Source: Roseiflexaceae bacterium
Lineage (GTDB): Bacteria > Chloroflexota > Chloroflexia > Chloroflexales > Roseiflexaceae
DNA: 64,000 bases
Assembly: GCA_947474225.1 (NCBI GenBank)
Contig: CANJHS010000006.1
Coordinates: forward strand, 1 to 64,000
Direction: 5' to 3'
Both the position numbers and the translations under genes were made by a program. The notes beneath the pieces are model-generated. The model did no database searches, was not told the origin of the DNA, and was given only the letters and a program-made list of their open reading frames with translations. Below are positions 27,863 through 55,203 of this stretch, piece after piece (position 1 is the stretch's first letter; every line of letters begins with the position of its first letter).

Positions 27863-29119
27863 TTACGGGGTCCAGATGGTGCCGTCTGGCCAGCGTGACT
27901 GGGTCCATTCGACGACTTTGTTTTCGGCGGGGTACTTGGCTGCTTTGACTTCGTCAAAGTCGACACCCCAACCTGGCTTGTCGTTGACATACACATAGCC
28001 GCCATGGACTTCTGGGCAGCCAGGGAAGACTTCGTACAAGTTCGGTCCGAAGTGGATGACTTCTTGGATACCGAAGTTGCGGCTCGACAAATCGAGATGC
28101 ACATTGGCTGCATGGCCGATTGGCGAGACGTCGCCAGGACCATGCCACGCAGTACGCACGCCGAAGGCCTCGGCGAAGGCAGCCAGCTTGCGGGCTGGGG
28201 TCACGCCACCGATGGCCGATACATGCGAGCGGATGTAGTCGATGAGCTGTTCGCTAATCAACGTCTTCCACTCGGCCGCGTTCACGTGCAATTCGCCCAT
28301 GGCGATGGGGGTTGCACACTGCTCACGGATGCGACGGAACCACTCGAGTTGGTCCGGTGCCAGTGGGTCTTCCAAGAAGAACAAGCGATACGGCTCGACG
28401 GCTTTGGCCATACGCACAGCATCAATTGGTGCAATACGCTCGTGGATGTCATGGAGCAGGAACAAATCAAAGCCAATTTTTGAGCGGATATAGTCGAACA
28501 TGCCCGGAATCGAACGGGCATAGACATCGGGCTGGTAATACGCGCCTGGGAAGGTTTTGTCCAGGTTGTCCATGCTGCGCATCCGATGGGTTGCTTGTGG
28601 TGCATCCTTGGATGGGACCGCGTTGCCGTTGTTGATATCTTGGACGCGGCCGCCGTAGCCGCCCATCTGACAGCGCACTGCCAACGCGCCGCCTTCTTTG
28701 TACTTGAGGACGTTGTCGAGCACTTCTTGGGGGTCACGGCCGTCGGCATGCCGATAGACCATTGCGCCTTCGCGGCACTTACCACCCCAGAGTTGATAGA
28801 CTGGCATGTTGGCGATTTTGCCCTTGATGTCCCACAATGCCATATCGACGCCGCTGACGGCGTTGTTCAGCACGGGGCCGTTGCGCCAGTAGGAATTGAC
28901 CATCATCATCTGCCACATGTCTTCGCTGTTGCGGGGATCACGGCCGATGAGTAATGGCTCGAGGTAATCCTCGACTGCCTTGACCACCAAGGTGGCCCGT
29001 TGGGTGAAGGTGGCACAGCCGTAGCCGACCAATCCATCCTGGTCTGTTTCGACCTTGACGACGACGATTCCGATGCCATCGGGTGCCGTCAAAAATGCTT
29101 TCACGCGTGTGATTTTCAT
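27863..29119 (-). CDS. Enolase-superfamily mannonate dehydratase / RspA-like
   Basis: ALWDIKGKIANMPVYQLWGGKCR, DLFLLHDIHERIAPIDAVRMAKAVEPYRLFFLEDPLAPDQ, RTAWHGPGDVSPIGHAANVHLDL. Confidence 0.9.
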   Translation of the reverse strand: MKITRVKAFLTAPDGIGIVVVKVETDQDGLVGYGCATFTQRATLVVKAVEDYLEPLLIGRDPRNSEDMWQMMMVNSYWRNGPVLNNAVSGVDMALWDIKGKIANMPVYQLWGGKCREGAMVYRHADGRDPQEVLDNVLKYKEGGALAVRCQMGGYGGRVQDINNGNAVPSKDAPQATHRMRSMDNLDKTFPGAYYQPDVYARSIPGMFDYIRSKIGFDLFLLHDIHERIAPIDAVRMAKAVEPYRLFFLEDPLAPDQLEWFRRIREQCATPIAMGELHVNAAEWKTLISEQLIDYIRSHVSAIGGVTPARKLAAFAEAFGVRTAWHGPGDVSPIGHAANVHLDLSSRNFGIQEVIHFGPNLYEVFPGCPEVHGGYVYVNDKPGWGVDFDEVKAAKYPAENKVVEWTQSRWPDGTIWTP

Positions 29120-29159
29120 CTGTACATGTTCCTGTTGTGTGAGGAATCCTCCTCACAAA

Positions 29160-30464
29160 TTAACTCCAGAGTCGATCCCAGCTGCCTGCACTGTCCCATT
29201 CGGGGGTTGGATCAAAGAAGCCGCTGCCCTTGACCATGTGCTCTTTGACGACATCGAGGTTGACCTCAAAGCCCAACCCCGGGGTCTTGGGGACATCGAT
29301 GTAGCCGTTTTGGATGACCGGCCCGGGTCGCCCGGGGATGGTAATGAAGTCGCTCCAGAATGGCTCTTCGGAGAAGTGATGCTCGAGGGCGATGAAGTTT
29401 TCGGTGGCTGCTGCGCAATGCACACTGGCCATCGTGCTGATGGGGGTGCCTGCCATGTGCATTGCCATCGAGATGCCACGTTCGGCCGCATAATCGCCGA
29501 TGCGCTTGGTCTCCATGATGCCGCCGCTGGTAGCCATGTCAGGGTGGATGATGTTGACACCACGGGCATCGATGAGCGGTTTGAATCCATCCAATGCGTA
29601 GATGTCTTCGCCGGTGCAGACGGGAGTGTGTAATTCGCGTTCGAGTTGGACCCACTGGTCGGTGAACTGCCAGGGCACCAAATCCTCCAGCCATGCCAAA
29701 TTGTATGGCTCGAGGGCTTTGCCGAGGCGAATGCAGTCATCCACGCCGATGTGTCCGAAGTGGTCAGCGGCGATGGGGACTTCGTAGCCGACCGTGGCGC
29801 GCACCTGGGCAACGTATTCGACAATCATGTCGAGGCCCTTGGGCGTGATGCGCACATGCGTGAACGGATGCTGCAACGTATGCAGATTGAGCATTTTGTC
29901 GAAGTGGGTCTGATCACCAGTTGGCAACATCCCAGCCGGGTAGGTCAGTGCACCGGGGACGCCGATCAACGGTTGGATGCCGACGTCCATTTTGAGCATC
30001 GTGTAGCCCCACGAGATGCGTTCCTGGAGCTGCTTGCCCATCGATACACCATCGGGTTCGTTGGGGGTGTCGCAGTACATCCGCACGCGATCGCGGTACT
30101 GGCCACCGGCCAAGGCGTACGCAGGTACGCCATAGGCTTTGCCAGCGAGGTCCATCAAGGCCATTTCGACGCCTGATACTCCGCCGCCTTGGCGACCGTG
30201 ATGCCCGAATTGCTTGATTTTGCGGAACAAGCGGTCGACATTGCAGGGATTTTCACCCAATAAGCGACTCTTGAGCATCAGCGCATATTTGGCAGAAGCC
30301 AAGTCACGGACTTCGCCCCAGCCACTGATACCCTGATTGGTATCGATGCGGATGATGCTGAATGTCCAGTGGTCCCAGCCGACGGTGGCAATGCGCATGT
30401 CGGTGATTTTGAGGTCGCTCGGGTTCGATGAGCGCCGGATGTTATCTTCGGGACGATTGCTCAT
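29160..30464 (-). CDS. Enolase-superfamily (mandelate racemase/muconate lactonizing) dehydratase
   Basis: ALMDLAGKAYGVPAYALAGG, PIAADHFGHIGVDDCIRLGKALEPYNLAWLEDLVPW, ISMAMHMAGTPISTMASVHCAAATENF. Confidence 0.88.
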   Translation of the reverse strand: MSNRPEDNIRRSSNPSDLKITDMRIATVGWDHWTFSIIRIDTNQGISGWGEVRDLASAKYALMLKSRLLGENPCNVDRLFRKIKQFGHHGRQGGGVSGVEMALMDLAGKAYGVPAYALAGGQYRDRVRMYCDTPNEPDGVSMGKQLQERISWGYTMLKMDVGIQPLIGVPGALTYPAGMLPTGDQTHFDKMLNLHTLQHPFTHVRITPKGLDMIVEYVAQVRATVGYEVPIAADHFGHIGVDDCIRLGKALEPYNLAWLEDLVPWQFTDQWVQLERELHTPVCTGEDIYALDGFKPLIDARGVNIIHPDMATSGGIMETKRIGDYAAERGISMAMHMAGTPISTMASVHCAAATENFIALEHHFSEEPFWSDFITIPGRPGPVIQNGYIDVPKTPGLGFEVNLDVVKEHMVKGSGFFDPTPEWDSAGSWDRLWS

Positions 30465-31288
30465 TTTTTGTTGGCTTTCTTCCATGCAGTGTAGTCAGCT
30501 TCGATGTCTTCGCGCCAGGTTTGCACGTCGATTTCACCGCTGGTGTATTTGCCTTCGCCGATGCGCATTTTGCCGAATTCGTCACGCACGCGGGTATTTT
30601 CGGACTCTTCGACCACTTCTTTGACCAGGTGTGGTGGGATGACGATGATACCGGTTGCGGTGCCCAAAATGACATCGCCTGGCAACACGGTCATGCCGTC
30701 GATACGGACCGGGATGTTGATGCCCGAGAGGGTCACATCGGCGATGGCCGTCGGATCAAAACCACGCACATAGAAGTTGACATCGTTCAACTCGACCAAA
30801 CCTGCCAGGTCACGGACGCCACCGTCGATGACGGCGCCGGCATGGGTACGCTTGGCTACGGCGGTGCCCAGATTGTCGCCGACCAGAGTGCCGTCTTTGA
30901 CTTTACCAAAGAGGTCACAGACCATCACGTCGTTGCGCTCGAGTTGTTCGATAATCCACGAGTTCTGGCCACCGATTTTGCCACGGCCTGCGGCGATACC
31001 GGAGTCCTGGATGGCTTTGTGGAAGTCTGGGCGGTGTGGCACAAAGGCTGCAGTGACGGCGCGACCGACGGTCACTTTGCCGGGGTGCGTCTCTTTCCAA
31101 TTGCCAGCAAACTGCAAGTTGAAGCCATGGCGGCGCAGGGTGCCCCAGGCTTCTTCGGTGGTGACCAGCTTCATGCGCTCGATCAAATCGTCCGGCACTT
31201 TGGGACGGCCATCGGCAAAACGCTCGAATGGGTTGTCTGCGGTCAGGGCGATCATCGCTTCGCGGGTCGGTTGTACATGCCACGTCAT
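30461..31288 (-). CDS. RraA-family (HMG/CHA aldolase-like) protein
   Basis: VGDNLGTAVAKRTHAGAVIDGGVRDLAGL; PGDVILGTATGIIVIPPHLVKEVVE. Confidence 0.88.
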   Translation of the reverse strand: MTWHVQPTREAMIALTADNPFERFADGRPKVPDDLIERMKLVTTEEAWGTLRRHGFNLQFAGNWKETHPGKVTVGRAVTAAFVPHRPDFHKAIQDSGIAAGRGKIGGQNSWIIEQLERNDVMVCDLFGKVKDGTLVGDNLGTAVAKRTHAGAVIDGGVRDLAGLVELNDVNFYVRGFDPTAIADVTLSGINIPVRIDGMTVLPGDVILGTATGIIVIPPHLVKEVVEESENTRVRDEFGKMRIGEGKYTSGEIDVQTWREDIEADYTAWKKANKK

Positions 31289-41683: not shown

Positions 41684-43918
41684 CTACACCTCTGGTTCCC
41701 AATCGAAGCGCAACGCTTCGGGAGGCAAATCGCGGATTTCTTCACTCTCACGACGGTGCAACAAGGCAGTTTTGACAATCAAGCGCAGCCGAGCCCAGTT
41801 ATCGACCGTTACCGGCACCGGCGTGGTCATTTTGCCGGCTGCATAGCGCGCCGCATTGCGACCCATGGCACGATAGGTGTCGAGTGTCATGCTGGGTGAT
41901 TGCGAAAAGAGCTCGAGATTATTGAGTCGCGCCAAATCGACTCGGTGAATAATCGACGTACCACGTGATTGGATGCCGATAGAGACACCCGAACCACTCA
42001 ATTTTGCTCCCACGTGGCCAATCTCGGCGCAGTCCGATGAGCGCCAGATCCGGACGATGCGGCCGATGAGACCTTCTTCGGCAATTCCGGTCAGTACCGC
42101 TTTGAGGACTTCCTCATGATTGAGTCCACCGATTGTTTTGGTCATAATGCGCCCAAAGGCAGGACCGATGGCAACCACCACCTCGGTGCTCCCACCGCGC
42201 TTGGCATTGCCGTACCCGGCCAGACTTTCGAGTGGTGAACCAAGTCTGTCCGCGATGAAATCACGCGGGGATTTGGCTTGATGGATGTGGGATATTTCGT
42301 GCCACCGGGCACCTTCGACGCGATATCCGGTGCCGGGACCGGTGTAATCATTGGGCTGATTGATGGCACTCTGGACCACAAAATCGCGGCCGAATATCGC
42401 CGCCGGCTGCAGATAATCGCCAGCAATGCGTTGACGACCCATGGTAAGCAGATGCTCTGCCACGTCAGTAAATCCGCGCCGCGCCAGAGCTGCTACCACG
42501 TCGACCATGCTACGATCGCCTGCCAAAAACGCATCTGCGGCGACGAGATCGGGGACAATATCGCGCGTAGGCATGTCGTCGCTCGAATATGCTTGGACTG
42601 CGGCTTCGACCTCGTGATCGCCAATATCGGGGAAGCCAAGTTCGGCGTAGACTGCCTGTATGGCTTGGGCACCGCGCCGACGAATTGCTTCCGCTTCGGC
42701 TTCGGTTATCGATCGCGTACCGCCGTCAATTTGCATGTCGCGCTGCAAAACGGCATAGTCATCGAGGTCATCGGCATCGAAGTTGCCGCCACCAAACATG
42801 TTGTCTTTGCGCGGTACGGCGCTATACCCCGAGAAGATAAAGTCCGTACCAGGGATAAATTGCAACATCAATTTGGCTGACTTGCGGATCGCCGAATGCG
42901 ATGCAAGGGCGTCATTCCCAGATGCCACTTCGAGTCCCAGCATCGATGCCATCAGATTTTCGGCGAGCACAGCCCGCACCCCACCCGGCAATGATTCGGG
43001 CAACGCGATGCACGAAATAGAGCCGTTTTGGACCCCTTGACTGCCCGCTCCACGGGTAACACACAAACAGCGCGCTTCGAGATAGAGCATCGATCGTTGT
43101 TCGGCACTACCCATTAATGCCTCAGAACCCGTCCCCGAGGTGAAGCGGACCTTGACCCCGCGCGATGCATAGGCCGATGCCAAAAACGCTTTGGACCACG
43201 GCGAGTCATCTCCATCGACGAAGGCTTGCTCGGTCCCGTACACCGAAAGTGTCTCGGCGTAGGTAGTCAACCCCTTCATGGCGATCCGCAAACCGAGCGA
43301 TTCTTCGACGGCGCATTGCGTCATAACCCCGCCGCGGCCAGTTTGCGCCCCGACCAGAATCGCCAGTGCGTTAAACGGGGCAGACCGGGCCACGCCGACG
43401 GTTGTCTCGAGCTCGGCGAAGCCGCGCAGGGCTGCTTCGGCTGCATCTGCTGCTAATAGCGCCGGATTTTCGCGGCGATTCGTGACGTGGGCCTGATTTG
43501 CTGGGATGCGGCGCACCCGCATTTTGGCAAGCCCATTCATCATCTCGAGGACATTCATGTGGCGCATGATGTCGACGAGTTTGGCTGGGGTACACCCAGC
43601 AGCCAGGCGTAACAGCACAGCACGCGGGATGTTGATGTCGGCCAACATGTGCGCAATGGTCAACGAATCCAGCGCCATCACTTCGGGCGCGACGAGAAGG
43701 TCGATGCCATGTCGCGCGATGTAGCAATCAAGGGTATCAAAGTCGGCTTCTGCTCGGCCATCGAGTTCGACAACGCGACCGTTTTCGATACGCAGGGATG
43801 GGTGTGGATCGTATGGGCTATCAGCCACCATCAGACCGGCTTCGGGCCATGATTCGACAAATGTTTCGCGGTTGATGTCGCGTTCTTCGAGGGCTCGGAA
43901 TCGTTTCAGGTTACTCAC
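41684..43918 (-). CDS. B12-dependent propanediol/glycerol dehydratase, fused large + medium subunits
   Basis: PduC-like 1-~555 (SNLKRFRALEERDINRETFVESWPEAGLMVADSPYDPHPSLRI..., DYTGPGTGYRVEGARW) continuing in frame into PduD-like STEVVVAIGPAFGRIMTKTIGGLNHEEVLKAVLTGIAEEGL...HVGAKLSGSGVSIGIQSRGTSIIHR; GTG start 43918. Confidence 0.95.
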   Translation of the reverse strand: MSNLKRFRALEERDINRETFVESWPEAGLMVADSPYDPHPSLRIENGRVVELDGRAEADFDTLDCYIARHGIDLLVAPEVMALDSLTIAHMLADINIPRAVLLRLAAGCTPAKLVDIMRHMNVLEMMNGLAKMRVRRIPANQAHVTNRRENPALLAADAAEAALRGFAELETTVGVARSAPFNALAILVGAQTGRGGVMTQCAVEESLGLRIAMKGLTTYAETLSVYGTEQAFVDGDDSPWSKAFLASAYASRGVKVRFTSGTGSEALMGSAEQRSMLYLEARCLCVTRGAGSQGVQNGSISCIALPESLPGGVRAVLAENLMASMLGLEVASGNDALASHSAIRKSAKLMLQFIPGTDFIFSGYSAVPRKDNMFGGGNFDADDLDDYAVLQRDMQIDGGTRSITEAEAEAIRRRGAQAIQAVYAELGFPDIGDHEVEAAVQAYSSDDMPTRDIVPDLVAADAFLAGDRSMVDVVAALARRGFTDVAEHLLTMGRQRIAGDYLQPAAIFGRDFVVQSAINQPNDYTGPGTGYRVEGARWHEISHIHQAKSPRDFIADRLGSPLESLAGYGNAKRGGSTEVVVAIGPAFGRIMTKTIGGLNHEEVLKAVLTGIAEEGLIGRIVRIWRSSDCAEIGHVGAKLSGSGVSIGIQSRGTSIIHRVDLARLNNLELFSQSPSMTLDTYRAMGRNAARYAAGKMTTPVPVTVDNWARLRLIVKTALLHRRESEEIRDLPPEALRFDWEPEV

Positions 43919-43951
43919 TGTGATTCTCCGTTCTACCTGCAAAACGAATCG

Positions 43952-44240: not shown

Positions 44241-47200
44241 CTAGGCTGGAATGAGGAACTGGTCGCTTTCATCAGCAGAATTCGTACGACTTCGATACTC
44301 ACGGGGTGTCATCCCCATCTCGCTGCGGAAGACTTTACTGAAGTACCCAGGGTCATCAAATCCAACCGAGATAGCAATGTCCGTAATACTATCGTCACTC
44401 GCCAACAAGGCATGACAGGCTTTAGCAACACGATACCGTGCCAAATACGTCCACGGCGTTACCCCGAGTTCGTTTTGGAATACTTGCGTCAAATAACTTT
44501 CGCTGACGCCGGCTTCAGCTGCAATCCGCTCACGGCTGAGCCGTTCGGCGTATTTTTTTTGCATATATGCGAGTGCGTGACGTGCAGCAGTGCTCAAATG
44601 GGGCGTATTGGCAAGCCCACTGCCGATTATTTGTCGGAGCAGTTCTGTCATCCCTTGGGATGTGTTGCCCACTTTGGGTCGTAGCACGGTTTGCGGGTAT
44701 TGGAGTTTTTGCACTTCAGCCCGTGTCAACACCTTCCCGCTCAACACCACGACGGGCACACGCTCGTAGTCTGGTTGACTGCGAATCCAATCCAACGTCA
44801 TAAAGCCATCTTGGATGGGCATCACCAAATCGAGGATGAACATGGTCGGTGCAGGTACGCCGTTGAGCGTATCACCCAGCTGACTGCCATCGAGACATGA
44901 GGTCAGCAGTGCATTGGGTAACGCACGCACGATAATTTCGCGGTACAAGTCGTGTAATCGCTTGTCGTCATCGATGATCACAATGTGCGGTCGCGTTCCA
45001 GGTGGCTGCGTTGCAACAATCGCCAATGCGTCAGTGAATTGAGCCGTACGGAACGGTTTTTGCACAATCGACAGTGTGTCACGCCGGTGGGCTTTGTCAT
45101 AAACAAAAAACGACACCCGAGACAGTACAGGATCACTATGTATGTGACGAAGTACAACCTCTTCTTCGCGAAATGGTGTGCTCGTATCCCATACCACAGC
45201 GATCGGAGAAAAACTATCGACCATATCTGCAGCAGCAGCAACGCTGGGAATATGCGCTACCGTTGCTGCGGTCCGCTGCGCCATGCATTGGACAGCAGGA
45301 GGAATCACTCCTTCGTCCCCGAGTATGGCAATGGCCGGTCGGAGATTGGGGTTGTGTGGCGGAGCAATATCCCCTTCTAGGCTGCGTACGGGCAAATAGA
45401 GATGAAAGGTACTGCCTTTTTCAATTGCACTTTCGACCGTCAAGATACCGCGATGCAATGCAACCAAACGGCGCGCAATCGCCAAACCCAATCCAACCCC
45501 GGAGTGCGGTGTATCGATGCCTTCGATGGTGACAAACGGCTCAAAGATTGTTTCTTGCTGGGCAGGCGCGATGCCGACGCCAGTATCTTTGACCCAGATA
45601 TGCACATAGGGTGGTTCAGGCAGAGCGCCGAGTGTAATAGAGCCACGTGCGGTAAATTTGGCGGCATTCCCCAACAGATTAAACAGAATTTGACGCATAC
45701 GCGTGGGGTCTACGTGGACTAACGGCAACGGTTCAGGGATGACTGACTGCCAGGATACACCGGGTTTGTCCAAGGTGTTCATCAGCTCGGTGAACGAAGA
45801 CTCAAGAATCGTCTCAAGGTCGGTCTGCTCTGGGAACAACACGAGTTCATCAATCTCGGCACGGGATAAGTCGAGTAAATCATTGATGAGTAGCACGAGG
45901 TGCTCCGCACTCCTCTGAATGGTGATGATGTCGCCACGGACCTCGTCACCGATGGCGATACCATGTGGTTGCGGGTCGGTAATCAAGAGTTGGCTATACC
46001 CCAGGATGATGTGCAGCGGTGTGCGTAATTCATGACTGACATTCGCTAGTAGACGCGTTTTGAGACTATCCGCTTGCTCGGCGACGTATTGTGCATGGCG
46101 TGCTGCCTGGAACAAATCGATGTTTTGGAGTGCGATACCGATTTGGTTGGCAACCAGCTGTAACCCATCAATTTCGCCACGAACGTGTGCGAGTAAGGTT
46201 GTGTTCTGCAAATCCAGCAGCCCAGTAACGGTGTCATTGAAGCGCACTGGCAGAACGATCCGTGTGCGTGTATTGGGATTATGGGCACTCTGTGCGAAGC
46301 GCATGCTGCTGTGCGTATCAGGAATATAAATCGCTCGCTCTTCGGCCAACGCAGCGGCCAGCGGTGTCCCGCGCAGTTGGACGTTTGATGTAGTATTGCT
46401 CATCAAATTCCCATCGCCATCAAAGCGCCAGATGGTAACCGAATCATATCCATAGTACTCACGCACGAGAGCGGAGACAGCGGTGATCAGAGCGTCGTGT
46501 TCGAAGATAGAACCAACCTGCTGGGTAATGGCCAAGCTCGTCTCGAGCTGACGAACGCGCTCGTACTCTCGTTGACGATTGACACCCATCAGGCGTGTTG
46601 GCAATTCTGCGAGCGAAATGAGCTTTTCTAGGGCAACTTCACCGACATTACGTGCATCGATGAGGCGCCGCTGCGGATCATAACTGTCTGGCAACATTCG
46701 CGTTTTAATACCCTGCAGGGCGAGTCGGAGCATGTCGTCTGCGAAGGAATCGAGCATCGTCTCGATCGTAACATCCATCCGTCCACGACTAATATCTGCC
46801 AATGCGAGCGGATCACCGTTGATTCCACAAACGAGTGGACGCGTGCGATCTGGGAACGCGTGGCTGAGGGAATCACGGCCACCGAGTGCCAACGAATCTG
46901 ACAACCCGACCACCGCATCGACGTGGTCATCGGAATGTTTCGTCAACCACTCGGCTACCGCCTGATATCCATCTTCATACTGCCATTCACACGAGATATG
47001 GATGACGTTAACCTGCGGCATGCCGGCAAAGGCAGCGCTAATCCCAGCGAGCCGAGACAACCCCATCTCGTCAAATCCACCGACTACCAGCACGGTAGCT
47101 GCGTCAGGCAATTTGCCATGTAGCCAGATGCCAATATCGTAGGCAGCATCATAGAGGCCACGGCGCGAGGTATACAGCGAACTCTTTACCGCACTTTCGG

Positions 47201-47477
47201 AGGCATCAATGACAGGAATGGCGCTCGAACGTAGTAACGACAGCAACGACGCATCAATAGAATTGCAGATAAGTGCATGGACCTGTTGCACACGAAGCTC
47301 TTCGTAGATTTGGGCGACATTACTGACCTCCCGCAATCCTTCGGATGCAGTGGTAAGGGTCAAAATTTCACAATGCATCGATTGTGCTTGGCGCAACAGT
47401 GCCTCGCGTACTTGTACCCAATACGGGTCAGGTACGCCAATCTGAAGTGCTATGCGATATCGTAGTTCGCTCGTCAA
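44241..47477 (-). CDS. Soluble hybrid sensor: periplasmic-binding-protein-like domain + GAF + histidine kinase + receiver(s) + AraC-type HTH
   Basis: LacI-type sugar-binding N-terminus without TM/signal; LKTRLLANVSHELRTPLHIILGYSQLL (HisKA); GLGLAIARRLVALHRG (HATPase); HIVIIDDDKRL...FILDLVMPIQDGF (REC); AraC HTH AGVSESYLTQVFQNELG...DIAISVGFDDPGYFSKVFRSEMGMTPREYR. Confidence 0.93.
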   Translation of the reverse strand: MTSELRYRIALQIGVPDPYWVQVREALLRQAQSMHCEILTLTTASEGLREVSNVAQIYEELRVQQVHALICNSIDASLLSLLRSSAIPVIDASESAVKSSLYTSRRGLYDAAYDIGIWLHGKLPDAATVLVVGGFDEMGLSRLAGISAAFAGMPQVNVIHISCEWQYEDGYQAVAEWLTKHSDDHVDAVVGLSDSLALGGRDSLSHAFPDRTRPLVCGINGDPLALADISRGRMDVTIETMLDSFADDMLRLALQGIKTRMLPDSYDPQRRLIDARNVGEVALEKLISLAELPTRLMGVNRQREYERVRQLETSLAITQQVGSIFEHDALITAVSALVREYYGYDSVTIWRFDGDGNLMSNTTSNVQLRGTPLAAALAEERAIYIPDTHSSMRFAQSAHNPNTRTRIVLPVRFNDTVTGLLDLQNTTLLAHVRGEIDGLQLVANQIGIALQNIDLFQAARHAQYVAEQADSLKTRLLANVSHELRTPLHIILGYSQLLITDPQPHGIAIGDEVRGDIITIQRSAEHLVLLINDLLDLSRAEIDELVLFPEQTDLETILESSFTELMNTLDKPGVSWQSVIPEPLPLVHVDPTRMRQILFNLLGNAAKFTARGSITLGALPEPPYVHIWVKDTGVGIAPAQQETIFEPFVTIEGIDTPHSGVGLGLAIARRLVALHRGILTVESAIEKGSTFHLYLPVRSLEGDIAPPHNPNLRPAIAILGDEGVIPPAVQCMAQRTAATVAHIPSVAAAADMVDSFSPIAVVWDTSTPFREEEVVLRHIHSDPVLSRVSFFVYDKAHRRDTLSIVQKPFRTAQFTDALAIVATQPPGTRPHIVIIDDDKRLHDLYREIIVRALPNALLTSCLDGSQLGDTLNGVPAPTMFILDLVMPIQDGFMTLDWIRSQPDYERVPVVVLSGKVLTRAEVQKLQYPQTVLRPKVGNTSQGMTELLRQIIGSGLANTPHLSTAARHALAYMQKKYAERLSRERIAAEAGVSESYLTQVFQNELGVTPWTYLARYRVAKACHALLASDDSITDIAISVGFDDPGYFSKVFRSEMGMTPREYRSRTNSADESDQFLIPA

Positions 47478-47643
47478 ACAATCCGTCCCTCTGGTGCAGA
47501 TGGGTGCTCTATTGCAATCTTCATTCTGCGAACAAATGCAAATATAAATACCGAATTTTGTTGGTTATTCCTAGTTTTGTATCGAATCTTCCAAGTCGAA
47601 CGAGCAGCTATCGCTTAGCATATCAAAGAATGATGATAAAGGT

Positions 47644-48009
47644 GTGCACATGTCACCGCGAAGCAGCGTTTTGTTGATAATCGAGCACGATCTCAGTGTT
47701 CGGCAACTCTACAGCCGCACACTCCGCGAGCCATACATACTCATCGAGGCACAAAATGCGGCGGAATGCGTACACGCATTTGCAAACCACGACATTGGTA
47801 CGGTCATTATCGAACCGCATCGACCAGATGGATTCGGCGATGCATTGATGCAACTCGTCCGTACACACTGCACGCCCAGCAACATTCCAATTATTGTTTG
47901 CAGTGTGCTTGACGCGAGCCTCGATCCGCAACACAATGGTTTGTACAAACATCTCGTCAAACCCGTCGCCCCCGAGCGACTCCGTGCCGAGATGCAACGA
48001 ATTATTTAG
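47644..48009 (+). CDS. Stand-alone receiver-like protein with Glu at the expected phospho-Asp position
   Basis: VLLIIEHDLSVRQLYSRTL...GTVIIEPHRPDGFGDALMQLV...LVKPVAPERLRAEM. Confidence 0.75.
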   Translation: MHMSPRSSVLLIIEHDLSVRQLYSRTLREPYILIEAQNAAECVHAFANHDIGTVIIEPHRPDGFGDALMQLVRTHCTPSNIPIIVCSVLDASLDPQHNGLYKHLVKPVAPERLRAEMQRII

Positions 48010-48064
48010 GAATTCACGCAATAGACGGTCCGCACGACTTTCATTGACAGCAAGGGAGCGTCAA

Positions 48065-48961
48065 ATGACTATCCGAACCGGGGCGCAAACCGCACGACGA
48101 AACGAAATAACCTGGGCATTGTTGTTCATCTTACCGAGCATCATTGGGTTTTTGGCGTTTTTTGCCATACCTTCGGTGCGCGGTCTCTTGATGAGCTTCA
48201 CCAATTGGGATTTGCTCCGGCCAGCAAAATTCACTGGCATAGCAAATTACATCAAGCTGCTCAGCGACAAAGAATTCTTGCATGCATTGCGCGTCACTGC
48301 GTACTATGTGGTCCTGAATATCCCGCTCCAAACCGTTATCGCCCTCGGCATGGCAGTCATGCTCGATCGCTTTACCAAATCAACGGCAATCCGCGGGATT
48401 CTCATTCTGCCGTGGCTTTTACCCAATATCATTGTGGCGTTACTATGGCTGTGGATGCTCGACCCGACGCTCGGATTTATCAACCAAGTGATTATGTCAT
48501 TGGGATTTGAGCGACAACCATTCCTCGGCTCGGTCACACAAGCAATGCCAACAATCGCCGCAATCAATATCTGGCGCCATGCCGGCTACACGGCGATTCT
48601 CTTATTTGCTGGTCTGCAAAACATCCCCAAGGACGTCTACGAGGCTGCTGCCATTGACGGCGCAGACGAACGTCAGATGTTCATGGGGATTACGTTGCCG
48701 TTGTTACGCCCAGTGCTGATCTTTGTCCTGGTGACATCACTGATTGGGTCATTCCAGATTTTCGACACTATCGTGATTACTACCAAGGGTGGCCCAGTAG
48801 ATGCGACCCGCGTTGTCTATTGGTACATCTACGAATATGCGTTTGTGCGCTTCAAGATGGGCTATGCTGCGACGATTTCGGTAGCGTTGTTCTTAATTTT
48901 GATTACGATAACCATCATCCAGATGCGCTATTTCAACGCTGACTCATCAGACCTTGATTAA
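48065..48961 (+). CDS. CUT1 sugar ABC transporter permease (MalF/UgpA type)
   Basis: ITWALLFILPSIIGFLAFFAIP, YEAAAIDGADERQMFMGITLPLLRPV. Confidence 0.92.
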   Translation: MTIRTGAQTARRNEITWALLFILPSIIGFLAFFAIPSVRGLLMSFTNWDLLRPAKFTGIANYIKLLSDKEFLHALRVTAYYVVLNIPLQTVIALGMAVMLDRFTKSTAIRGILILPWLLPNIIVALLWLWMLDPTLGFINQVIMSLGFERQPFLGSVTQAMPTIAAINIWRHAGYTAILLFAGLQNIPKDVYEAAAIDGADERQMFMGITLPLLRPVLIFVLVTSLIGSFQIFDTIVITTKGGPVDATRVVYWYIYEYAFVRFKMGYAATISVALFLILITITIIQMRYFNADSSDLD

Positions 48962-48983
48962 TCAACGACGGAGGAGGAGCACA

Positions 48984-49886
48984 ATGACGACACTCAAAAA
49001 GACCAAAGCGGGAATTTCAACCCGTCAGATATTTGCCTGGATTGTATTGGGAATGATTGTCTTGGTCACACTGTTCCCCGTATGGTGGGTGGTGCGGACA
49101 GGATTTTCGAGCAAACAAGAAATATACGTCGATACCTTCAACCTGCTGCCAGTCGGCCCAACACTGAACAACTTCAAGCGCGTCTTGGGGATGTTCAGCT
49201 CCGAAGAGGCTGTGGCACAGGGTGGCACCGCAGGTGCGATGAACTTCTGGATGGACCTCAAAAATTCGTTGGTGGTATCGACGACGACGATTTTGGGCCA
49301 AACGTTCTTTAGCGCGATGGCAGCATATGCGTTTGCCCGGCTCAAATTTCGCTTTCGCGACCAAGTATTTTTTCTCTACCTGACGGCCATGATGATTCCT
49401 GGTGTGGTGACATTGGTCCCCAACTACATCTTGATGGCGCGAGAATTACAGTGGATGAATACCTACCGCGGGATTATTGCGCCCTCATTCCTGATGACCC
49501 CATTCGCCGTATTCTTCTTGCGGCAGTTCTTTTTGAGCATCAATCATGAGCTCGAAGAGGCCGCCAAATTAGACGGTGCGAGTATACCGCTCATCTTTGT
49601 GCGGGTAATTCTGCCGATGAGTGTGCCGGCTTTGAGTACGTTGGCAATTTTGCAGTTCTTGGGCAATTGGAACGACTACTTGTGGCCGTTCTTGATTGGC
49701 AAAGGCGCAGACATGCGGACGCTGACGGTGGGGTTGGCAGTCTTTCAATCACAGACCCCTCAAGGGGCACCTGACTGGGGTGGGTTGATGGCGGGGACGA
49801 CCTTGAGTCTCATCCCGACGATTCTCATCTTCTTGTTTTTTGGGAGACGGGCCGTCAACGCAATCCAGTTCACTGGGTTCCGCTAA
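48984..49886 (+). CDS. CUT1 sugar ABC transporter permease (MalG/UgpE type)
   Basis: LEEAAKLDGASIPLIFVRVILPMSVPALSTLAILQFLGNWNDYLWPF. Confidence 0.92.
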   Translation: MTTLKKTKAGISTRQIFAWIVLGMIVLVTLFPVWWVVRTGFSSKQEIYVDTFNLLPVGPTLNNFKRVLGMFSSEEAVAQGGTAGAMNFWMDLKNSLVVSTTTILGQTFFSAMAAYAFARLKFRFRDQVFFLYLTAMMIPGVVTLVPNYILMARELQWMNTYRGIIAPSFLMTPFAVFFLRQFFLSINHELEEAAKLDGASIPLIFVRVILPMSVPALSTLAILQFLGNWNDYLWPFLIGKGADMRTLTVGLAVFQSQTPQGAPDWGGLMAGTTLSLIPTILIFLFFGRRAVNAIQFTGFR

Positions 49887-49953
49887 GTATTGGCACCAAC
49901 GATGCACAAGCATCGGGATGCATAGATTTCCATTTTTTGAAGAGGAGAGTTCA

Positions 49954-51378
49954 ATGCGTTTACGTTTCAACGCACTGGCAATCGCTCTGGTGATGGTCAG
50001 CAGTATGCTCATTGCAGCATGTGGCGCCAAAGCACCAGCAGCAGAGCCAACGGCAGCAGCAGACGTTGCCGCCGAAGCAACCGCAGCACCAGCCGAAGAG
50101 CCAACCGCAGCAGTCGCAGCATCCGCTGACGCAGTCACCATCCGCTACGGATTGTGGGACGGCAACCAGCAGCCAGCATACGAAGCCTGTGCAGCTGCCT
50201 TCACCAAGACCAACCCAAACATCACTGTGAAGGTTGAGCAGGCAGGTTGGGGCGACTACTGGACCTCCGTTCAGACCGGTATGGTCGGCGGCACGGCTCC
50301 TGACGTCTTCACCAACCACTTGGCCAAGTACCCAGAATTCGCAGCCAAGGAACAGCTTGTCGACATCCAGCCGTTCGTCGAGCGTGATGGCGTTGACATG
50401 AAGCAGTACCTGCCAGGCCTGGCCGACCTTTGGGGTCGTGACGGCAAGCGGTATGGTCTGCCAAAAGACTGGGACACCGTCTCGGTTGTCTACAACAAAG
50501 ACATGATGGACAAAGCCGGCGTGACCGTTGAAGAACTCAACAACGCTGACTGGAATGCCAAAGACGGCGGTTCGTTCGGCCAGATCATCAAGAAGTTGAC
50601 GATCGACTCAGCCGGCAAGAATGCCCTCGACGCAGGCTTCGACAAGAGCAAAGTCGTCCAGTACGGCTTCGTTGGCGGCGGTAGCGGCGGCGCATACGGT
50701 CAAACCCAGTGGAGCCATTGGGCCGTTTCGAACGGCTTCAAGTTCAACGACGGTTTGTATGCAACCAAGTACTTCTACGACGATCCAAAGTTGGCCGAAA
50801 CCATGCAGTGGTATGCCGATTTGAATCTTGTCGAAGGCGTAGCCCCAACCTTGGCCGACGTCAAGAGCCTCGGCGCAACTGCTCTCTTCACCGCAGGTAA
50901 GGCAGCATTGACCACCGACGGTTCATGGATGATTGGTTCATATGTGAAGGACGCCAAGTTCGTCACCGGCTTTGCACGTTTGCCAAAGGGCCCAGAAGGC
51001 CGCAAGTCCATGTTCAATGGTCTTGCTGACTCCATCTGGGTTGGTTCCAAGCACCAGGAAGAATCCTGGCAGTGGATGAAGTTCGCTGCATCCCCAGCCT
51101 GTGCAAACATCGTCGGCAGCTACGGCGTGGTCTTCCCGGCCATCCAGAGCGGCGTCGATGCAGCCCTCAAGGCATACGGCGATCGTAAGGTCGACGTTTC
51201 CGCCTTCACGGCTCAGGCAACCGAGGCCAATGGTACGTTCTTGTTCCCAGTAACCGACCACGCGTCGGAAATTGGACCGATCATGGACGCCACCATGGAC
51301 AGCATCATGCTCGGCGAAAAGCCAGCAGCCGATGCCCTCAAGGCAGCCAACGACGAAGTCAACGCACTGTTCCAGTAA
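49954..51378 (+). CDS. Sugar ABC transporter substrate-binding lipoprotein, family 1
   Basis: MRLRFNALAIALVMVSSMLIAACGAKAPAAEPTAA; VTIRYGLWDGNQQPAYEACAAAFTKTNPNITVKVEQ. Confidence 0.93.
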   Translation: MRLRFNALAIALVMVSSMLIAACGAKAPAAEPTAAADVAAEATAAPAEEPTAAVAASADAVTIRYGLWDGNQQPAYEACAAAFTKTNPNITVKVEQAGWGDYWTSVQTGMVGGTAPDVFTNHLAKYPEFAAKEQLVDIQPFVERDGVDMKQYLPGLADLWGRDGKRYGLPKDWDTVSVVYNKDMMDKAGVTVEELNNADWNAKDGGSFGQIIKKLTIDSAGKNALDAGFDKSKVVQYGFVGGGSGGAYGQTQWSHWAVSNGFKFNDGLYATKYFYDDPKLAETMQWYADLNLVEGVAPTLADVKSLGATALFTAGKAALTTDGSWMIGSYVKDAKFVTGFARLPKGPEGRKSMFNGLADSIWVGSKHQEESWQWMKFAASPACANIVGSYGVVFPAIQSGVDAALKAYGDRKVDVSAFTAQATEANGTFLFPVTDHASEIGPIMDATMDSIMLGEKPAADALKAANDEVNALFQ

Positions 51379-51452: not shown

Positions 51453-53105
51453 ATGAATCGTACGCAGCTCTACATCCCACTGATTGCCCTCTTCACCAGC
51501 GCTTGCAGCGCCGCTACACCGGCGATCGTTTGGTCGGGCAATACCATTCCCATAACGAGCCACGTCACCCCGTATGCACAATCAATACCGTGCAGCGATA
51601 CCTTCTCTCCACATCCCCTCACACACACCACTCGCGTTCCCGTGCCTGTACACCTCTTTGCCAGTAATGGATCAGGTGTTGCTGCTGGTGATGTCAATGC
51701 CGATGGTCTACCGGACCTGGTATTGGCCAATATCGCCGGTGAGACAACCCTGGCAATCAACACTGGTGCTTTTACCTTCAAAGAATTACCGCTTGACCTG
51801 CCCAATACCCGGGCTGTCCAAATTGTCGATGTCGATGGCGACGGTCATCCCGACATCAGTGCGACACACCAGGGTGCAGGAATCAGCCTCCTCCTCAACA
51901 ACAATACGCCCGAGCAACCATCATTCAGCCGCGCCCAAGTCACCTTTGGGAATGTACGCGCCTACAGTATGCTCTGGCATGATTTCAATGGCGACCAGCG
52001 CCTCGATGTGGTCACCGGCTCGTACGACGCAGAAGCACCGCGCGGCGGCAGCCAATCGCTTTTTGATGGACAAGCAAATGGCGTCTTTCTCTTTACCCAA
52101 AACGCCGACGGCAAATTCACCCCCACACGCCTGTCAGATCACGCCAATGCATTGTCGATTACTGCAATCGACATCGACGGGGATGGCAGCGACGACATTG
52201 TCGTGGGCAATGACTTTGATACGCACGACATGGTCTGGCTCAAACACGGCAAGGACTGGGTCGAGACGCAGCCGTTCGAATCAACCCCCCACAGCACCAT
52301 GAGCTATGATGTGGCCGATATGAATCGCGACGGTGCACCCGACGTGCTCGCTGCCGACATGAATCCATACGATACGGGTGTCGAAACGCTCGCCAAATGG
52401 CTCCCCGTTACCAGTCGCATGACGCAGTACCACCCCGCCGATGACCCGCAATTAATGGAGAATGCAATTCTCCAACGGGGCACAGACAACCGCTGGTACA
52501 ACATCAGTCGTACGGTTGCAGCTACATCAACCGGTTGGAGTTGGTCGACCCGCTTCGGTGATCTCGATAATGATGGCTTCCTCGACATTTATGCGGTCAA
52601 CGGCATGATTGCAACTGAGCTCTTTCCATTCCTCCCCGATGCTGCCCTCGTCGAGCATAATCAAGCATTGCGCTTCGATGGGACGCGCTACCAGCCCGCA
52701 CCACAATGGCACCTCGATGCCACTGAATCGGGCCGGGGGATGGTAATGACCGACCTCAATGGCGATGGCAAACTCGATATTGTCGTCAATAATCTGCAGG
52801 CGCCGAGTATGCTGTATGAAAATGAATTGTGCGCCGGTAATTCGTTAACGGTGACACTGCATCAGTTGGGGCCGAATCCCGAAGCCATCGGCGCACAGCT
52901 CCGCTTGGTGACCAGCACAGCGACACGCTGGGGAGCAATCACCACTACCCGCGGCTATCTCTCGGGGGATGTCGCAGCAGTACACTTCGGTTTGGGTGCA
53001 GGGATTCCCTCTGCACTCGACATCCGCTGGCCCGATGGTACGCTTTCTCACCTAGTAACCCCACCGACATCCGGACATCTACTCATCGAACGAGGTGCAC
53101 CATGA
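51453..53105 (+). CDS. FG-GAP/VCBS repeat lipoprotein with C-terminal ASPIC/UnbV domain
   Basis: Seven DxNxDGxxD-type motifs (DVNADGLPDLV, DVDGDGHPDIS, DFNGDQRLDVV, DIDGDGSDDIV, DMNRDGAPDVL, DLDNDGFLDIY, DLNGDGKLDIV); LDIRWPDGTLSHL end; LFTSACS lipobox. Confidence 0.88.
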   Translation: MNRTQLYIPLIALFTSACSAATPAIVWSGNTIPITSHVTPYAQSIPCSDTFSPHPLTHTTRVPVPVHLFASNGSGVAAGDVNADGLPDLVLANIAGETTLAINTGAFTFKELPLDLPNTRAVQIVDVDGDGHPDISATHQGAGISLLLNNNTPEQPSFSRAQVTFGNVRAYSMLWHDFNGDQRLDVVTGSYDAEAPRGGSQSLFDGQANGVFLFTQNADGKFTPTRLSDHANALSITAIDIDGDGSDDIVVGNDFDTHDMVWLKHGKDWVETQPFESTPHSTMSYDVADMNRDGAPDVLAADMNPYDTGVETLAKWLPVTSRMTQYHPADDPQLMENAILQRGTDNRWYNISRTVAATSTGWSWSTRFGDLDNDGFLDIYAVNGMIATELFPFLPDAALVEHNQALRFDGTRYQPAPQWHLDATESGRGMVMTDLNGDGKLDIVVNNLQAPSMLYENELCAGNSLTVTLHQLGPNPEAIGAQLRLVTSTATRWGAITTTRGYLSGDVAAVHFGLGAGIPSALDIRWPDGTLSHLVTPPTSGHLLIERGAP

Positions 53106-53872
53106 CAACGCACAGCATGCCTCTGAGCGCATCTCCTCAGCCAGCATCGGTGCTTGGATATATGATTCCACTGCAACGACGCGTAGCAATCGCCATTGGC
53201 GGAGTGGCCCTTGCGATGGGAATTCTGGGGCTTTCTATTGGTCAACCGATGTGGCGGGCGGCCCTCCCGGGGACATTTTTGTTCAGCGGTGCGGTCATCA
53301 TCCGTTGGTACTACGACCGCAGTCAATATGGCCAACTCATCGCCCTAATGGTCGCATTGTTGACCTTCCAGGGTGGGCACGGAGTCGAACATCTGACGCA
53401 GTGGGTACAATATCATCTGTTGGGATATACGGCACGTGCATCGAGCGGACTGATTTCGGCAGCGAATTCCGAGTGGGTACATTTTCTCTGGAACTGGGGC
53501 GTGCTCTTGGTTATGCTGCGCATCTACTGGTTAGGTCTACGCAATCCGTGGGCCTATCTGATGCTGTTTTGGACCATCGCACACACCAGTGAGCACACCT
53601 ACCTGTTTGTCCGTCATCTCGAAGTCCTGCAAATGCTGCGTGCATACGGCGAACCAACCATCACCGCCCAAGGCTTGCCAGGTATCTTTGGGAACGACGG
53701 CTGGCTGGCCCGCAGTCCTGCGACCGCAGGTACGTGGGTCTGCACCTTCCCCGGGTTGACCACGGCAACCCGTCTTGATGTCCACTTTTGGTGGAATGTC
53801 GGCGAGACCATCCTCCTGATGATCGCCGCATACACACACATACATCGCTCCCCGCAGCGCACCGCGCGCTGA
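53102..53872 (+). CDS. Polytopic membrane protein translationally coupled to the FG-GAP protein
   Basis: ATG overlaps the upstream stop by 4 nt; several TM segments with membrane His residues (GGHGVEHLTQW, WVHFLWNWG, HTSEHTY). Confidence 0.7.
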   Translation: MTTHSMPLSASPQPASVLGYMIPLQRRVAIAIGGVALAMGILGLSIGQPMWRAALPGTFLFSGAVIIRWYYDRSQYGQLIALMVALLTFQGGHGVEHLTQWVQYHLLGYTARASSGLISAANSEWVHFLWNWGVLLVMLRIYWLGLRNPWAYLMLFWTIAHTSEHTYLFVRHLEVLQMLRAYGEPTITAQGLPGIFGNDGWLARSPATAGTWVCTFPGLTTATRLDVHFWWNVGETILLMIAAYTHIHRSPQRTAR

Positions 53873-53904: not shown

Positions 53905-55203
53905 ATGGCAATCATCACACTTCTCGGTGCAGGCAGCACTGTCTTCGCAAAAAACTTGCTGGGAGACATCCTCTCGTTCCCCGAACTCGCCAACAGCGAG
54001 ATTCGCCTCTTCGACATTGATCCCGAACGCCTCAAGACCTCCGAAGTCGTGGCAAACAAGGTCGCCCAAGCCCTTGGTGCCAAGCCCAAAATCGTCACCA
54101 CCACAGACCGCAAAAAAGCCTTGGAAAACGCCGATTACTCTATCGCCATGTTCCAAGTGGGTGGCTACAAACCATCGACCCTCATCGACTTCGACATACC
54201 AAAGAAGTACGGTTTGCGCCAGACCATCGCCGACACCCTCGGCATTGGCGGCATTATGCGCGGCCTGCGCACCATCCCGGTCATGCTCGACATGTGCCGT
54301 GATATGGAAGAAGTCGCCGGCGACATCACCTTCCTCAATTACGTCAATCCGATGGCAATGAACTGCTGGGCCATGTCCCGTGCCACCACCATCAAAACCG
54401 TCGGCCTGTGTCACTCCGTCCAAGGCACCGCAGAACAACTCGCCGATGACATCGGTGTCAACATCAACGACATCAATTACATCGCAGCCGGCATCAACCA
54501 CATGGCCTTTTACCTCAAGTTCGAAAAAGACGGCAAAGACCTCTACCCCGCCATCCAGAAGGTCCTCAACGAGAAGCGTGCCCCCGATTGGAATCTCGTA
54601 CGCTACGAAATTTTCAAGCGCTTTGGCTTCTTTGTCACCGAATCGTCCGAACACTTCGCGGAATACACACCGTGGTTCATCAAACGCGACCGACCAGAAC
54701 TCATCGAGGAGTTCAACATTCCCATCGACGAGTACATTCGCCGCTGCGAAAACCAAATCGCCGGCTGGCATCAGCTCCGTGAAGACCTCATCACCAATGA
54801 CCTGCCCCTCGAAGTCAACCGCAGTCACGAATACGGTTCACTCATCATCCATAGCATGGAAACAGGCCAGCCACGGGTTGTCTATGGCAATGTTCCCAAC
54901 CGAGGTTTGATCAATAACCTGCCCGAAGGATGCTGCGTCGAAGTACCTGTTTTGGTCGACAAAAGCGGATTGCAGCCTACCAAAATCGGCAACTTACCAC
55001 CACACCTGGCTGCCATGATGCAGACCAACATCAACGTGCAGGCAATGACCGTCGAGGCTGCCCTCACCGGCAAACGTGAACACGTCTACCACGCAGCCGC
55101 CTTCGACCCACACACCGCTGCTGAATTGTCACTCGACCAGATCTGGAATCTGTGCGATGACCTGCTCGCAGCCCACGGCACTATGATTCCTACACTCAAG
55201 TAG
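53905..55203 (+). CDS. Glycoside hydrolase family 4 (alpha-galactosidase/glucosidase type)
   Basis: MAIITLLGAGSTVFAKNLLGDIL, ADTLGIGGIMRGLRTIPVMLD, NYVNPMAMNCWAM, GLCHSVQGT, AGINHMAFYL. Confidence 0.92.
   Translation: MAIITLLGAGSTVFAKNLLGDILSFPELANSEIRLFDIDPERLKTSEVVANKVAQALGAKPKIVTTTDRKKALENADYSIAMFQVGGYKPSTLIDFDIPKKYGLRQTIADTLGIGGIMRGLRTIPVMLDMCRDMEEVAGDITFLNYVNPMAMNCWAMSRATTIKTVGLCHSVQGTAEQLADDIGVNINDINYIAAGINHMAFYLKFEKDGKDLYPAIQKVLNEKRAPDWNLVRYEIFKRFGFFVTESSEHFAEYTPWFIKRDRPELIEEFNIPIDEYIRRCENQIAGWHQLREDLITNDLPLEVNRSHEYGSLIIHSMETGQPRVVYGNVPNRGLINNLPEGCCVEVPVLVDKSGLQPTKIGNLPPHLAAMMQTNINVQAMTVEAALTGKREHVYHAAAFDPHTAAELSLDQIWNLCDDLLAAHGTMIPTLK

Follow-up and report, generated by a model that had tools for sequence, protein, structure and literature searches.

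E. coli XylR joins a LacI/periplasmic-binding-protein (PBP)-like ligand domain to an AraC DNA-binding domain. A larger arrangement is found in Bacteroides, where the hybrid two-component system BT1754 is a membrane-spanning sensor of periplasmic fructose (PMC3404733). Among receivers that have lost the acceptor Asp, Glu is the commonest substitution (26%) (PMC4395418), and according to a review the role of such receivers is little known outside plants (PMC12632262). The locus described here lies in a window of 64,000 nucleotides (the whole stretch that was analysed) from a Roseiflexaceae (Chloroflexota) genome. It encodes a regulator that, as judged from its sequence, is architecturally a cytosolic counterpart of the Bacteroides hybrid two-component systems. 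As in BT1754, a PBP-like sugar sensor, a kinase, a receiver and an AraC output stand in one chain beside a carbohydrate locus. Unlike the Bacteroides systems, the regulator has no transmembrane (TM) helix, so the membrane-spanning character of that group is missing; it also has a GAF domain and an additional pseudo-receiver (REC1), and most of its relatives are accompanied by a further receiver, REC3. Like XylR, it combines a cytosolic PBP-like sensor with an AraC output, and it resembles XylR with a kinase inserted. XylR contains no GAF domain, kinase or receivers, whereas the regulator has an intact HisKA/HATPase core, which is kept even in relatives without receivers. REC1 follows the catalytic domain and precedes the true receiver, a placement that recalls the hybrid kinase ShkA of Caulobacter (PMC7010744), but the DDR motif was not found in the REC1-REC2 linker (ATQPPGTRPH) of the regulator, and here the output domain is fused. 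A literature search for soluble PBP-kinase-AraC proteins found none, which does not by itself prove their absence.

The regulator and its domains are the following:
44241..47477, minus strand, soluble sensor kinase/AraC regulator of 1078 aa (ORF, Pfam domains and hydropathy)
46638..47477, minus strand, type I PBP-like ligand domain, residues 1-280 (Pfam PF13407 and PDB profile matches)
46128..46496, minus strand, GAF domain, residues 328-450 (Pfam)
45855..46061, minus strand, HisKA/DHp domain with H482, residues 473-541 (Pfam and motif reading)
45384..45710, minus strand, HATPase domain, residues 590-698 (Pfam and motif reading)
45000..45338, minus strand, REC1 pseudo-receiver, residues 714-826 (family alignment, receiver matches in homologs and low-confidence model fold matches)
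44643..44993, minus strand, REC2 receiver, residues 829-945, with D836/D837, D883 and Lys (Pfam and alignment)
44286..44525, minus strand, AraC-type HTH domain, residues 985-1064 (Pfam)

The multidomain ORF of the original prediction was borne out by ORF and Pfam mapping. It starts with TTG, with GAGGG just 5' of it. Peripla_BP_4 matched residues 17-238 with 40 bits (cut-off 35.1), and the GAF, HisKA, HATPase_c and HTH_18 matches, which span the residues listed above, all exceed their Pfam cut-offs. The PDB profile matches of the ligand domain were ribose/monosaccharide-binding proteins (E 2e-22), and 2x7x, which we take to be BT1754, was among them. No TM helix or signal peptide was predicted in the regulator, whose maximal 19-residue hydropathy was 1.27 compared with 2.45 in the permease next to it; the binding-protein fold opens with a strand that starts at about residue 9. 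In some relatives hydropathy peaks reached 1.9, but these correspond to strands and helices of the receiver domains and not to the interval between ligand domain and kinase. The absence of a signal peptide and TM segment, as originally proposed, was thus confirmed, and since no TM helix separates the ligand domain from GAF, the proposal of cytosolic sensing is supported. The kinase motifs are complete (H482 and the N, G1 and G2 boxes), and by sequence the phospho-His, the ATP-binding boxes and the receiver acceptor Asp of a hybrid kinase are all intact; no loss of catalytic motifs speaks against a single polypeptide that holds the entire signalling chain. The sequence therefore supports a predicted cytosolic sensor with the complete chain in a single protein. 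The structure predictions had low confidence and were given no weight in these conclusions, and the AlphaFold model of the ligand domain (pLDDT 47, four-row alignment) was left out.

REC2 is the canonical receiver that had been predicted: its acidic residues, acceptor Asp and Lys are present in all aligned members, and its Response_reg match (832-916, 27 bits) is slightly below the Pfam cut-off of 30.2. For REC1, the description as a receiver-like segment without the acidic pocket holds for the acidic pair, which is degenerate in the window protein and lost across the family; it does not hold for the acceptor position, where D764 lies within the very motif quoted, VVWDTS, and is conserved in 28/29 family members. 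The KP Lys of REC1 is usually retained as well. Homologs show two Pfam receiver stretches, consistent with a receiver relationship of REC1, and a REC1 structure model (pLDDT 63) gave receiver-type fold matches exclusively, at E 0.003 or worse.

The window protein is not unique. Full-length homologs were found in eight further genomes of its genus (53-73% identity) and in other genera and another class (36-40%), and homologs of 1067-1087 aa are spread across the phylum Chloroflexota. A second group of 1107-1256 aa, with Peripla_BP_3 sensors and no GAF match, shares the kinase-REC1-REC2-AraC body, and the architecture is thus a recurrent one in Chloroflexota. By sensor-plus-GAF profile scores it was detected in 6 of 400 genomes of the phylum, 23 of 396 in the class of G239 and 14 of 82 in the order, these sets being overlapping. 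The sequences all come from genome assemblies or MAGs, of which some are fragmentary, and the regulators of L061, L160 and L179 are frame-broken.

The original prediction placed the regulator between a diol dehydratase and a divergent CUT1 transporter. These neighbours are correct, but the gene for REC3 intervenes before the transporter, on the following side of the locus:
47568..47595, plus strand, candidate AraC operator, two half-sites 21 bp apart (TTCCTA...TTCCAAG) (cross-species matrix)
47616..47621, plus strand, -10-like box TAGCAT, 20 nt after the operator (spacing comparison)
47650..48009, plus strand, REC3, stand-alone receiver of 119 aa with acceptor Asp replaced by Glu (codon 47812-47814) (Pfam and alignment of copies)
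48060..48961, plus strand, CUT1 permease 1, predicted regulon
48954..49886, plus strand, CUT1 permease 2, predicted regulon
49840..51378, plus strand, CUT1 substrate-binding protein, predicted regulon
53905..55203, plus strand, GH4 alpha-galactosidase-family enzyme, predicted regulon (NF011657, 683 bits, cut-off 486)

REC3 matches Response_reg with 30.3 bits and adjoins the regulator in most relatives, both within the genus and in distant genomes. The transporter 3' of it is either CUT1 or an unrelated Opp-type system, so the association of REC3 is with the regulator rather than with any single transporter. In G015 it lies 8.7 kb from the regulator, ahead of Opp genes; in G007 an ORF resembling an insertion sequence stands between them. 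Glu occupies the acceptor position in 29 of 30 copies, and dN was well under dS wherever measurable. Like the Asp-less receivers (PMC4395418) and pseudo-receivers (PMC12632262), whose usual residue profile it matches, REC3 retains the first acidic residue, Ser/Thr and Lys and has mostly lost the second acidic residue; unlike them, it is a stand-alone protein linked, through its gene position and a common promoter, with a single soluble kinase-regulator. As a defined partner, it could serve to probe what Asp-less receivers do. REC3 was not found in one related clade with a CUT2-type transporter, nor in four receiver-less loci. The sole copy with an acceptor Asp is that of G771 (L177), a single case in which Asn replaces the Asp of REC1, so that the acceptor looks as though it had been exchanged between REC1 and REC3. 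Stand-alone receivers with an operator-like site upstream also occur near two Peripla_BP_3-type relatives (L065:13642-14097 and L070:4357-4809).

The region at 47.5-48.1 kb had been proposed as DNA bound by the regulator. It does contain the candidate operator, but it also encodes REC3. The tandem half-site upstream of REC3 reads about TTnTGTCCAAGA, with a spacing of 21 bp, and TANNNT follows exactly 20 nt beyond the half-site in all ten loci tested, while any other offset occurs in at most one locus. A matrix was built from the sites of the first loci and then applied to 26 new loci, the predicted place being immediately past the regulator or immediately ahead of REC3, on the same strand as the regulator. 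The top match fell there in 22 of the 26, compared with about 0.7 (0.68) expected (P about 2e-32 assuming independent loci, which in fact share ancestry). The evidence for the operator is cross-species, and self-matching of the repeat in the window alone gave p 0.08. The operator is also present at loci without REC3 and at those with receiver-less or His-less regulators. Its layout in the sequence, with direct half-sites separated by about two helical turns next to a core promoter, is that of AraC-type activators, and the proximal half-site next to the -10 box suggests an activator overlapping the -35 region. The genome holds one perfect copy, with two other places matching with two mismatches. 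Because the operator is single, the target would be REC3, the CUT1 transporter and probably GH4, which together form the predicted regulon, and not the diol dehydratase.

We consider it reasonably probable that the regulator is a soluble local activator of REC3, CUT1 and GH4 that acts by phosphotransfer to REC2. The domains, catalytic residues, lack of TM helices, operator, linkage and Asp-to-Glu replacement in REC3 are supported by sequence evidence; from here we infer the identity of the ligand, the direction of regulation, the reach of the operon to GH4, the path of phosphotransfer and the action of REC3. Cytoplasmic galactose or an alpha-galactoside, most likely, would be bound by the binding-protein-like domain, and the GAF/linker region would relay the change to the kinase dimer. 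H482 would be autophosphorylated and pass the phosphoryl group to D883 of REC2, a step that the pseudo-receiver REC1 perhaps gates. The AraC domains would then bind the 21-bp-spaced half-sites by the -10 box upstream of REC3 and turn on REC3, the CUT1 transporter and the GH4 enzyme. REC3, a product of the same promoter that could not be phosphorylated on Asp, may dock on the kinase/REC domains as a feedback partner. The regulator holds the whole chain in a protein that is compact, soluble and purifiable, and it comes with a predicted class of ligand, a precise candidate operator and a companion protein; sensing, phosphotransfer and DNA binding could thus be studied in one tube.

The kinase core might instead serve mainly as a dimer switch: the ligand would alter AraC spacing directly and phosphotransfer would play a secondary part, with REC3 docked constitutively on the DHp domain. 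The relatives that bear on this reading are twelve proteins that lack both REC1 and REC2 and retain the kinase core. In a tree of the sensor domains receiver loss amounts to three changes, and the starred branches alone are compatible with one origin; the receiver-less G005 clusters with a long form (support 92/90), and receiver-less forms probably arose more than once. Most of these separately placed forms retain the operator and the galactoside genes. The phospho-His is replaced by Glu or Gln on separate branches in four of the twelve, compared with none of 24 long forms (Fisher p 0.008, uncorrected for phylogeny). Since receiver-less and partly His-less relatives keep the operator, phosphotransfer may not control DNA binding, and at least in these relatives the kinase core may signal to AraC without it. 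REC3 is missing in three of the four His-less short forms and in one that contains His; seven short forms retain His and REC3 with Glu, no Asp receiver having been found adjacent, so that REC3 keeps its Asp-to-Glu replacement even as the only remaining receiver. This pattern suggests that REC3 goes with the kinase core. A rule drawn from G005, under which loss of the internal receivers always entails loss of REC3, was rejected, as eight further receiver-less loci keep it. On the other side, the window protein and all other long forms with HisKA covered keep His, and they keep the Asp and Lys of REC2, so phosphotransfer appears to be under selection in long forms. We regard the dimer switch as unlikely for the regulator itself and retain activation by phosphotransfer to REC2. 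A bolder extension, which we put forward tentatively and with some doubt, is that a non-phosphorylatable REC3, encoded by the first gene of the target operon, controls a soluble kinase-AraC regulator in trans, and that the lineage series sheds receivers, then the phospho-His and then REC3 with the operator fixed, so that a two-component chain would become a one-component switch. Relatives without receivers, and those also without the His, have the same operator and form a natural series in which to ask when phosphotransfer can be dispensed with.

Both the target and the ligand could also be read differently. The main targets could be the diol dehydratase and the Opp transporter at 35-44 kb on the other side of the regulator, which are adjacent and are linked to it throughout the genus wherever the contig extends far enough. 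This linkage was not seen outside the genus, whereas linkage to transporter and galactosidase persists, and one relative has its own LacI gene between regulator and dehydratase (L055:11576-12598), which is absent in the window. The matrix also found no site at 43.9-44.2 kb, where binding had been suggested; an operator at the dehydratase was rejected, the best remaining match in the window scoring 8.0 compared with 36.4. We consider this target very improbable. Regarding the ligand, a CUT1 or Opp transporter is linked with GH4, GH36, GalT, GalK or GalE across classes. GH4 follows the operator site in the window genus, in G015, and in G239 together with several genomes of its class; GH36 melibiase, GalT and GalK follow it in G001 and others, and in L162 a GalE-like epimerase does (identified from its sequence start). 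The genome of the window also encodes GalK and GalT families at other places. Because of these linked genes, our best guess for the ligand is galactose or an alpha-galactoside. The uronates, rhamnose/fucose and propanediol originally suggested find no support, the conserved neighbours being alpha-galactosidases and Leloir-pathway genes. A galacturonide, another oligosaccharide or a metabolic intermediate seems a somewhat unlikely ligand. It is favoured by the multi-specific nature of family GH4, the structures nearest to the window enzyme including a galacturonidase and glucosidases, and by the full-length clade without REC3 (L154, L157, L165, L167, L168 and L170). This clade stands beside a CUT2-like transporter, a type assigned from gene order and ORF starts, with no galactosidase found there; it may sense something else, and the operator is the top match in four of its six members (L157, L167, L168 and L170). 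The recurrence of melibiase and of GalT, GalK and GalE at linked loci argues against it and for galactose or an alpha-galactoside.

Several neighbouring genes deserve mention in their own right. In the subclade to which the window belongs, an FG-GAP/UnbV_ASPIC protein and a Pfam-less protein (51453-53105 and 53102-53872, plus strand) separate the transporter from GH4. On the other side of the regulator, the large and medium subunits of the diol dehydratase are fused in a genus-conserved ORF of 752 aa (41684-43942, minus strand; NF011979 at 11-561 and NF011616 at 572-737). Farther away, two adjoining enolase-superfamily (MR_MLE) enzymes are encoded at 27863-30485 on the minus strand.
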